From NCBI GenBank assembly GCA_021323535.1, contig JAJONO010000050.1:1-34189 (forward strand): a stretch of 34,189 nt of DNA, read 5' to 3'. Below are positions 15,276 to 34,189 of the stretch, in pieces. Each line of letters starts with the position of its first letter. Position 1 is the stretch's first letter. This stretch comes from Bacteroidota bacterium (GTDB lineage: Bacteria; Bacteroidota; Bacteroidia; B-17B0; Aurantibacillaceae). The translations under genes were made by a program, and so were the position numbers. The notes beneath the pieces are model-generated. The model worked only from the letters and a program-made list of their open reading frames with translations, ran no database searches and was not told the DNA's origin.

Positions 15276-16031
15276 TTACAGTTTGAGAACCTCTCTCAGT
15301 TTGGAATATCCCGTTTTGCTTAACGGTAACTTTACACCATTTTTAAGCACCGCGAGCTGATTGTTCTTATCCAGCGGTTCAATTTTCGTAATGTAATTAA
15401 TATTGAGAATAAAAGAGCGATGAACACGTACAAACTGCGATGGATCGAGGGTTTCTTCATAATAACTCATTGTTTTTTTCTTGAGGAAAAACGTTTCCTT
15501 ATTAAATACTTTTACATAATCGTCGTGCGCTTCCAGATACAGCACATCGCTCACCGGAAGAATAAGAATATGCGAACCATTCTTTACCACAATACGGTGC
15601 GCTTCATCAGAATGTTTCTTGGGTGAATTATCCAACGCTTCTATTTTCTTTAAAGCTGGTTCGTTTTCTCCTCTCGCCTGGTGAGCCTGAAGGAATTTAT
15701 TCAGCGCCTTTTCAAAACGTTCGGGACTAAAAGGTTTGAGTAAATAATCCACCGCATTTTGCTCGAACGCTTTTAAAGCATATTCATCAAACGCCGTCGT
15801 GAAAATCACTTCCGGTTTTTTATCCAGAAGCTCGAGTGTTTCAAAACCGTTGATCTTTGGCATTTGTATATCAAGAAAAATAAGATCGGGCTGATGCGAC
15901 TGAATGGCTTTAACGGCTTCAAATCCATCACCGCACTCGGCCACCACTTCCACCGAAGGAATTGCTTTTAAATATTCCTTTACAACTTTACGAGCAAGAT
16001 GTTCGTCGTCGATTATAATTGCTTTTATCAT
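15276..16031 (-). CDS. LytTR-family response regulator
   Basis: 251 residues. The N-terminal receiver domain has the acidic pair D8/D9, the phospho-acceptor D54 in LIFLDIQMP, a Thr in FTTAFDEYALKAF and the conserved Lys in YLLKPF. A charged linker (about 115-145) leads to a C-terminal LytTR DNA-binding domain (ILILPVSDVLYLEAHDDYVKVF; QFVRVHRSFILNINYITKIE), the type that binds paired direct repeats. It is the last gene of the operon and overlaps the kinase gene by 4 nt, so the pair is coupled. A direct repeat at 18270-18302, upstream of the operon promoter, is a good candidate for its own target. Confidence 0.93.
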   Translation of the reverse strand: MIKAIIIDDEHLARKVVKEYLKAIPSVEVVAECGDGFEAVKAIQSHQPDLIFLDIQMPKINGFETLELLDKKPEVIFTTAFDEYALKAFEQNAVDYLLKPFSPERFEKALNKFLQAHQARGENEPALKKIEALDNSPKKHSDEAHRIVVKNGSHILILPVSDVLYLEAHDDYVKVFNKETFFLKKKTMSYYEETLDPSQFVRVHRSFILNINYITKIEPLDKNNQLAVLKNGVKLPLSKTGYSKLREVLKL

Positions 16032-17059
16032 GGCTGTGGTATTAAAATGATTGTTACAAAAACAGTATCCCGTTTTTCTGTTTTAAGAAGATCGGCGCGG
16101 TGATAGATGAGCTGGAGTCTACGGCGGATGAGCGACAAACCAAAACCCTCTCCTTTGCGCGTCATAGATGTTTTTTCATCAAAAGGATTGAACACAATGA
16201 TATTCAGCATGCCTTTATCGGCACGCGCTATGATCTTAATTTCTACCTGTTCGAGCACATTGTACAAGCCAAACTTGATCGCGTTCTCAACAATGGGTTG
16301 CAACAATAAAGGCGGAATAGTTCTTTCAAGAGTATCGTCGGCAATTTCGAAATTTACTTCGAGCCGGTTACCGAAACGTACTTTTTCAATATCGAGATAG
16401 AGTTTCAGTAATTCAATTTCTTCTTTCAGGGGAACCGGTTTATTTTCATCTTTCTTTAATGTACCTCTTAGGAAATCAGAAAGATTCTGAATCATTTTGC
16501 GGGCCTGCTGCGGTTCAATACTTACAAGCGCGTTGATTGAATTTAAACTGTTGAATAAAAAATGTGGTTGTATCTGCTGACGTAATTTTATGAGTTCAGC
16601 ATCACGAAGCGAATTTTCCGCGCTCTGATTCATCGCCATTTGTTCATCATGTTTTCTGATATAATAGATCAGCCACATGGCAAACGAGAAAAAAGAAATT
16701 ACGAGGAAAGACGTAAAAATTCGGATCACAATTGTTTCCTGGAAAACGCTAACGTAAGCAGGGTCATAAATGAGCCGTGAAACAAGAAAGCGCTCCACTA
16801 AAATAATTTTAGCTACGAGCACAACGGTTAAGCCAATGCGCGTGAAAAGATTATTGAAATAATTGGCACTGTATTTCTGAAGAATGTAGATGAAGAAAAT
16901 TGCAATGATCAGAAGGCTAAAAGTTATAAAACTATCAATACAACTTACCTGGTGCGTAACCTGCTCCACGAGGGCCCCCTGGAAAACAACATTGATTGTG
17001 AACCAGAGAATGCCGGCCACAACCAATTGTAATTTTGTTGGGAGTCTGAATGACTTCAT
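16028..17059 (-). CDS. LytS/YehU-type membrane sensor histidine kinase
   Basis: 343 residues. The N-terminal ~135 residues hold about four transmembrane helices (roughly 10-30, 43-62, 73-93, 108-134). A short coiled linker leads to the His_kinase domain of the LytS class with the phospho-acceptor His166 in QQIQPHFLFNSLNSINAL. The ATPase half has IPPLLLQPIVENAIKFGL (N box) and a GEGFGLSLIRRRL glycine loop. There is no extracellular sensing domain, so the signal is probably read in the membrane, perhaps through the LiaF-like partner. It lies one base after the DUF4288 gene and overlaps the regulator start by 4 nt. Confidence 0.92.
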   Translation of the reverse strand: MKSFRLPTKLQLVVAGILWFTINVVFQGALVEQVTHQVSCIDSFITFSLLIIAIFFIYILQKYSANYFNNLFTRIGLTVVLVAKIILVERFLVSRLIYDPAYVSVFQETIVIRIFTSFLVISFFSFAMWLIYYIRKHDEQMAMNQSAENSLRDAELIKLRQQIQPHFLFNSLNSINALVSIEPQQARKMIQNLSDFLRGTLKKDENKPVPLKEEIELLKLYLDIEKVRFGNRLEVNFEIADDTLERTIPPLLLQPIVENAIKFGLYNVLEQVEIKIIARADKGMLNIIVFNPFDEKTSMTRKGEGFGLSLIRRRLQLIYHRADLLKTEKRDTVFVTIILIPQP

Positions 17060-17060
17060 G

Positions 17061-17408
17061 TTAACAGAACACCAGGTTCCTGCTTTGAATAGCGATTCCC
17101 TTTTGCAGCACCGAATTTATAAAATTTTCTTTCTCGCTTGTTTCATAAGTGCTGGAATAAACCTCCATTCCGTCTTTAATGTCAGAAAGGGTTATAACTT
17201 CATTTACATCTACAAACCGCCAGGCTATTGCTTCGCCTTTTTCACTAAGGAAATTTGTCTGCAATGTTTTCCCGAGTTGTTTGGCTTTAAAGTAAGCATC
17301 GGATTCATTCGTTGCTTTTATAAGCCGGAGCTGTTCGTCGAATTGCGCGTTTAGAACAGGCTGTTCCGAATCTACGCTGAAAATTAATTTAACAAGAAAC
17401 CAGTTCAT
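17061..17408 (-). CDS. DUF4288-like small protein
   Basis: 115 residues, no signal peptide or membrane helix. The opening MNWFLVKLIFSV, the segment FDEQLRLIKATNESDAYFKAKQLGK and the pattern WRFVDVNEVITLSDIKDGMEVYS match the DUF4288 family as I remember it. The function of that family is not known. It sits between the LiaF-like gene (20 nt upstream) and the kinase (1 nt downstream) in a compact operon, so a role linked to the two-component system is possible but only by position. Confidence 0.75.
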   Translation of the reverse strand: MNWFLVKLIFSVDSEQPVLNAQFDEQLRLIKATNESDAYFKAKQLGKTLQTNFLSEKGEAIAWRFVDVNEVITLSDIKDGMEVYSSTYETSEKENFINSVLQKGIAIQSRNLVFC

Positions 17409-17428: not shown

Positions 17429-18214
17429 TTAATACGATACTATTTCAATTCCTCCCATAAACACTCTGCCCTGTAATATCAGTGTTTTTACCTGATGTAC
17501 ATCCGTAAGGTTTACTTTCGGACGTTCATCCTCAACACCCGCGAAAACACAAACCACATCCGACTTCACAACCCAATTCGCCGGCACAACCAGTTTTATA
17601 CCGCCAAAATGCTGGTGAACCGTAATTACAGCTTCGTTAGTAACATCTGCCTGCATGAGATTAAGTTCGCAACCACCAAAGGTGTTGTTTATTTCTCCTC
17701 CTTTAAAATCTTTACTGATCACATTTTTTTTTGATCCTGCAAAAACATTATCCATTAATACAAAATCGTCGGAACTGTTATTCATGGATTCATCTGCCCC
17801 AACGTTCCAGTGGCGACGGTGCTTAAACTTGTATTTTGCATAATGTTTGTATCGGTTTTTGGGTTTAAAGATCAGCAGCAAACCCACCGCAAGTAAAATA
17901 ATAGGGATCCTGAATTTGTAAACATCGAATCCCTGAACCATGTCCCCGGTCAGGAACACACCGCCTATGATGATCAGAACAATCCAGAAGCTGCGTTTAA
18001 ACTGGTGCTTGATACCTGAAATAATTCCGATTACGATCAACAAAGTTGGCCAGGTAAAGATCCATTGCGGAATCAGGTATCCAAGTTCTTTAAGGAAGAA
18101 CAGCGCCGCGGCTATTATCACTACTATCCCTGCACATATCCTCCCACGACGCTGGTTCTGTTCCCAGTTCTTAAAGCGCTCATCATTCTGAAATTGTTCT
18201 TCTAAAGTTGTCAT
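17429..18214 (-). CDS. LiaF-like membrane protein
   Basis: 261 residues. Four hydrophobic helices lie in the first ~120 residues (RICAGIVVIIAAALFFL; IFTWPTLLIVIGIISGI; SFWIVLIIIGGVFLTG; IPIILLAVGLLLIF). A basic linker follows, then a C-terminal beta-repeat domain (VFAGSKKNVISKDFKGGEI, FGGCELNLMQADV, HFGGIKLVVPANW), the arrangement seen in LiaF and related proteins. In Bacillus, LiaF restrains the LiaS kinase until the envelope is stressed. By analogy it may control the kinase two genes downstream; that is inference. It is the first gene of the operon, behind a clear promoter at 18232-18262 and candidate regulatory repeats at 18270-18302. Confidence 0.85.
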   Translation of the reverse strand: MTTLEEQFQNDERFKNWEQNQRRGRICAGIVVIIAAALFFLKELGYLIPQWIFTWPTLLIVIGIISGIKHQFKRSFWIVLIIIGGVFLTGDMVQGFDVYKFRIPIILLAVGLLLIFKPKNRYKHYAKYKFKHRRHWNVGADESMNNSSDDFVLMDNVFAGSKKNVISKDFKGGEINNTFGGCELNLMQADVTNEAVITVHQHFGGIKLVVPANWVVKSDVVCVFAGVEDERPKVNLTDVHQVKTLILQGRVFMGGIEIVSY

Positions 18215-18231: not shown

Positions 18232-18262
18232 CAAAGTTAGACAGGGAACTTCTGGCCAGAAA
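18232..18262 (-). promoter_or_regulatory. Promoter of the LiaF-like/kinase/LytTR operon, overlapped by a 12-bp palindrome
   Basis: Minus strand: TTTC at 18262-18259, a 19-bp spacer and a full-match -7 box TAACTTTG at 18239-18232; the start codon is 17 nt further. The perfect palindrome TTCTGGCCAGAA at 18250-18261 overlaps the -33 region and could be an operator. Confidence 0.6.
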
Positions 18263-18269
18263 CATCAAA

Positions 18270-18302
18270 TCGGTGAATGAAACGCAGAGGTCGGTGAATG
18301 AA
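18270..18302. promoter_or_regulatory. Two 12-bp direct repeats 21 bp apart, candidate LytTR binding sites
   Basis: TCGGTGAATGAA occurs at 18270-18281 and again, unchanged, at 18291-18302. The start-to-start distance of 21 bp is two helical turns, as in known LytTR operators. Taking the transcription start as about 18227, the copies are centred near -49 and -70, normal activator positions. Autoregulation by the LytTR protein of this operon is the likely use. Confidence 0.55.
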
Positions 18303-18544: not shown

Positions 18545-18570
18545 AGAAAGTGAAGCGCTTCTCTTTATTT
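18545..18570. terminator. Imperfect hairpin at the end of the beta-propeller gene
   Basis: The core GAAGCGCTTC (18552-18561) is a palindrome. With one mismatch it extends to AAAG/CTTT on either side. A T-run follows on the plus strand (TTTATTTTTT) and a shorter one (TGTTTT) on the minus strand. Weak terminator call. Confidence 0.35.
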
Positions 18571-20253
18571 TTTAATAAATCGTTTCTGGCAAATATGCGT
18601 TTCGTTTCTGATCAGTTTTATACAATACAAACCATCATTTAAACTTGCGATATTAATCTGTGTATAATCTCCATTAAGATTTTGCGTTAAAACCAAACTT
18701 CCACTACTATTGTAAACTTCTATAACTTCAGCTTTTACCGGGTTCAATATATTTAAAATGTCGTGGGTCGGAACGGGATAAATTAAAATGCTTTTTGCGT
18801 CTGAAGTTTCTTCTTTTGTTCTTTCATAGACTGGTGCTTTTAATTTGGCCAGAAAAATGTCCGGGCCGCCGTAACCGGAAGTTGTTTGCATTCCAAATTG
18901 CGCACCACCTTCACAATAGCCCGTTAAAAACAGATCCCCTGTTTGAGGATGAACATTTACATAATGACCCCGATCGTTTCCTGCAGAACCCATTGCAAAT
19001 AATTCCAGAAGGTTGCCACTTGTAGTGTAGGAAGCGAATAAAATATCCTGCCCTCCGTATCCCGAAACAGTATCATTTCCAAAAACTGCGCCATCACTTA
19101 CAACGCCTGTTGCATATATGACATTTCCATCGTTGCTCATTTTTAAGCCTCGCGCAACATCGTAACCCGAACCACTTCCCGTCCTTATCCAAACAAGATT
19201 ACCAATTGAATCATATTTATTAAGAAGAAAATTAAGAGTAAAATTTACGGAGTCTGTTTGTTGTCCACTAAAAAACGCTTTCGCTGTATAATCACCTCCA
19301 ACAAATACATTTCCATTCTGATCAACCTCTACAGCTTCTCCATAATCATTATAATTACCTCCTCCGGTCCTTACCCATTTTACAGTTCCATCTTCTTTTA
19401 GTTTTGCTACAAAAAGATCAAATGAAGTTGCAGGACCTGTAGTATTTGCCTGGTGGCCGCCAAAAAAATCAGTCTGGAAAGGGGCGTTAGGTCCTCCTTC
19501 AAAACTTCCGGTGACATAAATACTCCCATTCAGATCCGATTTAATGCTTTCTATTCTGTCCCCGGCTGGTCCGGTAAGCACCTTTACCCAGATTAAATTT
19601 CCATTAGGATCATATTTTATGATATATCCATCGTAATTTCTCCACTCATAAGGTCCTGAACTATTAAATACATTAGCTGTTTTTATTATTCCACCAAAAT
19701 TTACTGTTCCGCAAAACATACCTGTTACATAAACATTTCCCGAAACGTCAATTGCAGAGGCTCTTACGGCAATTGACGCATCACCGGCTCCACCAAATTT
19801 CTTTGCCCAGATATAATTACCATTTACTGATTTTTTATAAACGAAGCCGCCAAACAAAGAAGAGCTGTCTATTAAAGAGATATTTCCAAACTGTGTATTT
19901 ATATAAAAAGTACCGCAACCATAGGTGTCACCATTATTCAGGACATTCTGATGCCAGAGATCGGCATTAAAAATATGGACATGATTAATATAATTTCCAT
20001 TAATATCGGTCATGTAGGACAATCCGTTCATATATGAAGAACCCGAACTAACGATTAGACTGCCATTCGTGGTACAGTTTTGTCCTTCAAAATAAGAACT
20101 GAGTAAAATATTATTATTATTATCAAAACATATGTGTTCACCGGATTCAGTGAATGTTTGAGTAGTGGCACCTCCTAAAACCGACACCCACTCTACATTT
20201 TGGGCTGTAAACCGCAAACAAGCTAAAACAAAAATGATCAATAAATTTTTCAT
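18565..20253 (-). CDS. Secreted beta-propeller (SBBP-like) protein with T9SS type A sorting domain
   Basis: 562 residues with a signal peptide (MKNLLIIFVLACLRFTAQ). The body consists of repeated blades of the SBBP type: GNVYVTGMFCGTVNFGG, GSIYVTGSFEGG, GNVFVGGDYTAKAFFSG, NVIYATGVVSDGAVFG and GDLFLTGYCEGGAQFG, often with an adjoining NYIWAKKFGGAGD or LVWIRTGSGSGYD strand pair. The last ~75 residues form a T9SS type A domain (ILIYPVPTHDILNI ... LNDGLYCIKLI ... KRFIKK). Probably an extracellular or surface protein exported by T9SS; the ligand is unknown. It is transcribed away from the TPR gene at 20418. Confidence 0.85.
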   Translation of the reverse strand: MKNLLIIFVLACLRFTAQNVEWVSVLGGATTQTFTESGEHICFDNNNNILLSSYFEGQNCTTNGSLIVSSGSSYMNGLSYMTDINGNYINHVHIFNADLWHQNVLNNGDTYGCGTFYINTQFGNISLIDSSSLFGGFVYKKSVNGNYIWAKKFGGAGDASIAVRASAIDVSGNVYVTGMFCGTVNFGGIIKTANVFNSSGPYEWRNYDGYIIKYDPNGNLIWVKVLTGPAGDRIESIKSDLNGSIYVTGSFEGGPNAPFQTDFFGGHQANTTGPATSFDLFVAKLKEDGTVKWVRTGGGNYNDYGEAVEVDQNGNVFVGGDYTAKAFFSGQQTDSVNFTLNFLLNKYDSIGNLVWIRTGSGSGYDVARGLKMSNDGNVIYATGVVSDGAVFGNDTVSGYGGQDILFASYTTSGNLLELFAMGSAGNDRGHYVNVHPQTGDLFLTGYCEGGAQFGMQTTSGYGGPDIFLAKLKAPVYERTKEETSDAKSILIYPVPTHDILNILNPVKAEVIEVYNSSGSLVLTQNLNGDYTQINIASLNDGLYCIKLIRNETHICQKRFIKK

Positions 20254-34140: not shown

Positions 34141-34189
34141 GGTAGGTATAGCTCAGTTGGTTAGAGCACTAGATTGTGGTTCTAGGGGT
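34141..34189 (+). tRNA. tRNA-His (GTG anticodon), cut by the window end
   Basis: The D-arm (TAGCTCAGTTGGTTAGAGCA) and the anticodon stem CTAGA/TCTAG with loop TTGTGGT are visible. Anticodon GTG is at 34176-34178. Counting back from the D-stem leaves one extra G before the 7-nt acceptor strand (GTAGGTA); this is the G-1 found only in tRNA-His. The T-arm and 3' end lie beyond the window. Confidence 0.95.

Follow-up and report, generated by a model that had tools for sequence, protein, structure and literature searches.

Conserved direct repeats as the predicted operator of a LiaF-like/LytS/LytTR operon in a Bacteroidota bacterium and its relatives

Is a pair of direct repeats upstream of a LiaF-like/LytS/LytTR operon the site through which the operon's own LytTR response regulator controls its transcription? 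We address this for a Bacteroidota bacterium (GTDB family Aurantibacillaceae), in a stretch of 34,189 nucleotides (assembly GCA_021323535.1, contig JAJONO010000050.1, positions 1 to 34,189) that we call the window. The repeat, TCGGTGAATGAA on the forward strand, is present in two exact copies at 18270–18281 and 18291–18302, which start 21 bp, or two helical turns, apart; on the operon (minus) strand, from 18302 to 18270, the pair reads TTCATTCACCGA-N9-TTCATTCACCGA. A first-pass annotation made from the sequence had pointed out the exact 21-bp-period repeat, which we located in both copies, and had proposed that it has the geometry of a LytTR operator. In our view these repeats very probably serve as operator for the LytTR response regulator that the operon encodes, because similar repeats with a 21-bp period, set at fixed distances from the promoter, precede the same operon in many distant relatives. 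The decisive evidence for this prediction is conservation, not the repeat itself. Taken alone, the repeat and a palindrome beside it are weak features: the window has six places with exact 12-bp direct repeats no more than 60 bp apart (14 rows, with overlaps), against a mean of 0.35 rows in mononucleotide shuffles, so that the repeat is uncommon there, not unique.

The 21-bp period is apparent before any motif is assumed. When 29 upstream regions were compared with themselves, an offset of 21 was in excess, with at least nine of ten bases matching in seven regions, while every other offset from 10 to 44 gave two or fewer. Expectation-maximisation on 38 promoters, those of 37 relatives plus the window's, then yielded de novo the motif CCATTTACCGAC, approximately TTYACCGAY. 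Three of the 40 fetched regions (L054, L063, L071) were excluded from this set as their promoters are cut off, and one included region (L055) has a wrongly placed start. The two best motif sites lie 21 bp apart in 28 of the 38 promoters, 20 bp apart in two and otherwise in eight; among shuffled promoters, 1% have their two best sites at 21.

The operon to which these sites belong is itself conserved. The LiaF-like protein was matched in 42 of 100 genomes, the window's own included, and LiaF, kinase and LytTR regulator occur together in 38 of the 40 fetched regions (35 with a DUF4288 match), the exceptions being L034, which stops at a contig end, and L070, which has a LiaF homologue only. A wider sample of named loci, the best 80 from a scan with the regulator alignment, includes Chitinophaga, Mucilaginibacter, Pedobacter, Pontibacter, Sphingobacterium, Bacteroidales, Ignavibacteriales and Chlorobiota, as well as Geothrix and other Acidobacteria and Betaproteobacteria (Massilia, Duganella, Janthinobacterium). 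In 76 of these 80 the kinase and regulator genes have a LiaF-like gene a short distance before them; the exceptions are L195, L202, L218 and L238. Setting aside those four and two loci that repeat training loci (L166, L213) leaves a test set of 74, for which pair scores were judged at 9.5 and 15.2, the 95th and 99th percentiles of a shuffle null.

In this set, outside the training loci, 62 of 74 carry a 21-bp pair of at least 9.5 before the operon, compared with 7/74 on the reverse strand, 2/73 in the 1 kb downstream of the regulator and 1/74 in shuffled sequence; at 15.2 the corresponding counts are 52, 1, 0 and 0. The first-pass annotation had named failure of conservation upstream of orthologous operons as what would refute it, and these counts come down on its side: similar repeats are kept, linked to a LytTR regulator across relatives, and autoregulation stands as a prediction. 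A pair together with a TAnnTTTR box in register was found upstream in 51 of 74 loci, and in none on the reverse strand or downstream of the regulator. When whole loci were searched on both strands at all 28 spacings from 13 to 40, the best pair of 47 of 76 loci lay in the upstream zone (zone share 4.8%), and its spacing was 21 in 45 of 76; with the spacing fixed at 21, the best pair is 2.27–2.42 kb before the regulator in each of the nine loci from Acidobacteria and Betaproteobacteria.

The features of the window that matter here are the following, all from the operon strand except the palindrome, which has no strand. Slot numbers give the distance in bp to the -7 box.

15276..16031, minus: LytTR response regulator, 251 amino acids, predicted operator binder (Pfam Response_reg and LytTR); the operator's conserved partner
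16028..17059, minus: LytS-type histidine kinase, 343 amino acids (Pfam His_kinase, PF06580)
17061..17408, minus: DUF4288 protein, 115 amino acids (Pfam PF14119)
17429..18214, minus: LiaF-like membrane protein, 261 amino acids, first gene (Pfam LiaF-TM and LiaI-LiaF-like_TM1 above cut-off)
18232..18239, minus: -7 element TAACTTTG, TAnnTTTG type; register conserved, 41 bp from the start of the second motif 12-mer
18250..18261, no strand: palindrome TTCTGGCCAGAA, judged a chance occurrence from its frequency relative to shuffles and a 112-promoter comparison
18260..18264, minus: putative -33-like element TGTTT; its TT is kept in 41-type promoters
18270..18281, minus: proximal repeat of the predicted operator, slot 41, TTCATTCACCGA, exact; the motif 12-mer, one base on (18280–18269), scores 14.0
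18291..18302, minus: distal repeat of the predicted operator, slot 62, TTCATTCACCGA, exact; the motif 12-mer, one base on (18301–18290), scores 15.0

We take TAACTTTG and TGTTT to form a promoter of the Bacteroidota type, judged by the consensus for that group; an E. coli-type sigma-70 scan did not have the window's promoter among its listings. With the transcription start estimated at about 18226, the repeat centres fall near -49 and -70, in agreement with the first-pass annotation, and both repeats, of the size (about 9–11 nt) and near-21-bp period of LytTR sites, lie upstream of the -33 element.

How firmly is the pair tied to the promoter? We compared 112 promoters, of which 100 have a pair of at least 9.5 (L067 and L213, with identical regulators, are both counted). 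A strict TAnnTTTG box lies within 110 bp after the start of the second repeat in 70 of these 100 loci, and its position is confined to two bands one repeat period apart: 33 boxes at 40–42, 37 at 61–63 and none elsewhere. Relaxed TAnnTTTR boxes fall within the same bands in 88 of 96 cases. The loci are related by descent, so we attach no probability to these counts. Anchoring instead on the box, sites scoring at least 6 in 93 promoters were found at offsets 83 (49 promoters), 62 (76) and 41 (27), with an average of 0.5% at offsets away from these slots. As the 93 promoters were preselected for an in-register box, the counts at slot 62 and at 41/83 are partly circular and the third slot is the informative one; the reverse-strand and downstream controls on the 74 loci are free of that circularity.

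These distances fit an operator organised as a three-slot array, 83, 62 and 41 bp before the -7 box, in which usually two of the three slots are strong. The third slot had not been seen in the first-pass annotation. The window occupies slots 62 and 41. In many relatives slots 83 and 62 are occupied and slot 41 retains a degenerate CCTAA; these 62-type promoters read gCCTAatt at offset 41, next to the -33 element's TTG, and the CC.A of that sequence lines up with the one in ACCGA. When the 41- and 62-type labels are placed on a quick tree of 113 regulators, at least seven changes are needed; many branches of the tree are weak, and the labels of seven rows behind this count were set by hand: L041 and L042 were assigned to type 62, a spacing-20 pair having escaped the fixed 21-bp scan, and L059, L064, L067, L068 and L213 were set aside. 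Some 41-type labels may also be wrong (L180 has one good site, L208 has three slots), which leaves the number of slot shifts uncertain.

In the mechanism that we propose, the LiaF-like protein and LytS would sense the state of the membrane or envelope, and the activated regulator would bind as a dimer, head to tail across the two repeats and along one face of the DNA. So bound, it would activate the promoter, giving the positive form of the autoregulation that we predict.

Several observations weigh against our reading of the repeats. Twelve of the 74 named loci score below 9.5, and over all spacings the top pair lies outside the upstream zone in 29 of 76 loci. Eight of the 96 relaxed boxes are outside the bands, 12 of the 100 pair-bearing loci have no relaxed box in register, and most non-Bacteroidota loci have no box of this type. 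The window's genome encodes 33 LytTR domains, and among 30 of their loci scanned with 1.5-kb flanks a pair scoring 9.5 or more is present in six as well (best 17.2), in no case with the box in register. Finally, activation rather than repression is derived from the position of the site. A site that instead represses, occupancy beside the -33 element hindering polymerase, is unlikely to be what we see here: slot 41 does adjoin the -33 element, and CoxC, with three repeats overlapping the -35 region, is described as a repressor (in passages of PMC11347149), but in the window the -33 element lies downstream of the repeats, slot 62 is strong more often than either other slot, and the same passages have RcoM1 and most LytTR regulators binding upstream of -35 as activators.

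A little less probable still is that another conserved regulator, and not the operon's LytTR protein, binds the repeats. Direct repeats are used by other factors too, and LytTR binding here is a prediction, but the pair accompanies the operon across phyla and its geometry suits LytTR sites, given in passages of PMC4847170 as repeats of 9–11 nt with spacers of 11–13. In the few instances where the operon is incomplete, moreover, the pair is not in place: in kinase–regulator loci with no adjacent LiaF gene the best 21-bp pairs score 2.9 (L195), 4.5 (L202) and 4.9 (L218), the pair of 19.8 in L238 lies downstream of the regulator, and the LiaF homologue without kinase and regulator (L070) has sites of 1.6 and 4.9. 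The palindrome TTCTGGCCAGAA had been offered as a second operator that brings a second input. It is indeed present and perfect, and it overlaps the -33-like element by two bases, but the window holds ten perfect 12-bp palindromes and shuffles hold 10.15, which puts it at chance level; it recurs in none of the 111 other promoters compared (of the 112, only the window's has it), and its core TGGCCA is absent from all 111 within 62 bp after the start of the second repeat. A function as a second operator is therefore highly improbable. In sum, the first-pass annotation was very probably right about its operator, which is better supported than it had claimed; its palindrome as a second input is unsupported. 

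Turning to the operon's proteins, the LiaF-like protein scores 25.4 for Pfam LiaF-like_C, under the cut-off of 29. Its AlphaFold model (mean pLDDT 78, pTM 0.45) has a C-terminal beta domain mostly at pLDDT of at least 88, and weakly resembles 4qrk, its top PDB match (E 0.0099, probability 1.00, TM-score 0.35 by query), which passages of PMC11237479 cite as an example of Toastrack; no PDB match to the model had E below 0.001. The regulator has the LytTR domain that the first-pass annotation ascribed to it. Its top NCBIfam match is BtsR, at 189.5 under the equivalog cut-off of 246, and it is not identified as BtsR (for BtsR, compare passages of PMC5552118). At L171 (~1631) and L169 (~858) another 21-bp pair, scoring 23.5 and 14.1, lies near a further LiaF-like gene upstream of the operon, and a LiaF-like gene that is a remnant or has diverged (E 5.7e-4) has an exact operator pair ~80 bp before it, at G017:C19:46999-47230. 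Elsewhere in the window, the upstream neighbour gene (18565–20253, minus) encodes a protein with a Por secretion tail, and a tRNA gene at 34142–34189 (plus) is truncated by the window end.

Does the operator also serve other genes? The first-pass annotation had suggested a genome search to define the regulon. In the window's own genome such a search returns one exact match, the operon's own site, and weak candidates beyond it: 105 matches with up to three mismatches (the exact one included), against 80 for the reversed control. The promoter-coupled 41-type pattern occurs there at three places, the operon's own site and two with two mismatches, which we do not take as targets, their repeats scoring only 2.1 + 8.0 and 1.8 + 7.1. 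Across 100 genomes, again including the window's, one mismatch or fewer gave 166 matches and 122 control matches, little excess. The combined pair-and-box pattern in 87 genomes of the order gave 70 matches of 62-type against 29 in reversed controls and 59 of 41-type against 26; some of these are tandem repeats (G105) and some recur in apparent conserved coding sequence. At G105:C13:4444-4678 there is a tandem run of 21-bp-spaced TTTACC units with many operator-pattern matches.

The pair-and-box matches include LiaF operons and TetR-family genes. TetR homologues of 42% identity or more number 12 in 61 genomes, and an MFS gene follows each of them; in seven of the 12 a pair of at least 17.5 is located 127–175 bp before the TetR gene, five with a box at 41. 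Three of the seven, G007, G025 and G011, are new; the other four (G006, G034, G028, G030), already in the output of the promoter-coupled searches, are not independent. No such pair precedes the TetR gene in G000 (the window's genome), G001, G017, G010 or G015. Two more TetR genes, in G057 and G044, have an in-register site, and MFS genes in G042, G050 and G107 have a site directly before them. Between the LytTR-like pair and the TetR start in L355–L364 lies a palindrome like GTGAATGAACATTCATT, perhaps the TetR protein's own operator. A gene for an MBL-fold hydrolase (Pfam Lactamase_B_2) has an in-register pair in four of 30 homologous loci, one being the starting case of the search, and pairs of 22.6 and 15.6 with no box in L263 and L269. 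The own-genome homologues of these candidates have no operator (MBL gene 6.5, L251; TetR gene 8.1, L360); wider targets thus appear in relatives only, the window's genome having one strong predicted site. In one genus (G053, G106, G107; L335–L343) several further pattern matches precede TonB-receptor-like, methyltransferase-like and MFS genes, the TonB-receptor-like candidates with no box in register and 'methyltransferase-like' being a name read from sequence.

We regard as evenly balanced the fuller proposal that a three-slot, phase-locked array belongs to a cross-phylum LiaF-like/LytS/LytTR envelope-sensing module, that the strong pair moves by exactly one 21-bp period, and that in some lineages the array also precedes a TetR–MFS pair and an MBL-fold hydrolase gene, as a small envelope-defence regulon. 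The candidate targets in relatives (efflux, a membrane-anchored hydrolase) suggest such a defence role. More generally, our searches showed no dedicated study of this widespread two-component operon; a sequence code for it would make its regulon readable from genomes, and orthologous regulators that appear to act from sites shifted exactly two helical turns offer a natural experiment on activation distance.

Searches of open-licence PubMed Central (titles and abstract starts) returned no description of this operator, and it can be set beside several known systems, each cited here from passages of the sources. As in the LytTR operators of AgrA and YpdB (PMC4227749, PMC4847170), a pair of direct repeats precedes the promoter at an interval of about two helical turns and is, here by prediction, read by a LytTR domain; the differences lie in the repeat sequence and in the three-slot register to a TAnnTTTG promoter. 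LiaFSR, VraTSR and related LiaF-type operons offer a second comparison: LytTR genes occur in Firmicutes operons with LiaI-LiaF-TM/Toastrack, and LiaF-type proteins occur with two-component systems in Ignavibacteriae and Proteobacteria (PMC11237479). The operon is not a LiaFSR system, its output domain being LytTR whereas that of LiaR is a winged helix-turn-helix; those passages describe no operator. With LytTR Regulatory Systems (LRS) it shares a LytTR regulator and a membrane protein in one operon, direct repeats upstream and (here predicted) autoregulation (PMC6193735, which also uses a Bacteroidota promoter consensus). The LRS-like examples in Bacteroides have 11-bp repeats with 11-bp spacers, regulators with transmembrane segments and partners with NfeD-like and DUF2154 domains, whereas here the repeat sequence is another and the operon contains a LytS kinase and a regulator that joins a receiver to LytTR. 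In LRS the membrane protein inhibits the regulator and autoregulation is positive; the additional kinase and receiver here suggest another signal path, so we do not file the operon as LRS. RcoM1 and CoxC likewise use three LytTR direct repeats at two-turn intervals, 18–21 bp for CoxC (PMC11347149), but are carbon monoxide-responsive one-component regulators, in contrast to a two-component operon in which usually two of three slots are strong. Triple LytTR repeats and autoregulated LytTR operons with membrane partners are already known; the apparently new elements are the motif, the tie of that motif to this two-component operon across phyla, and the shifts by one repeat period.
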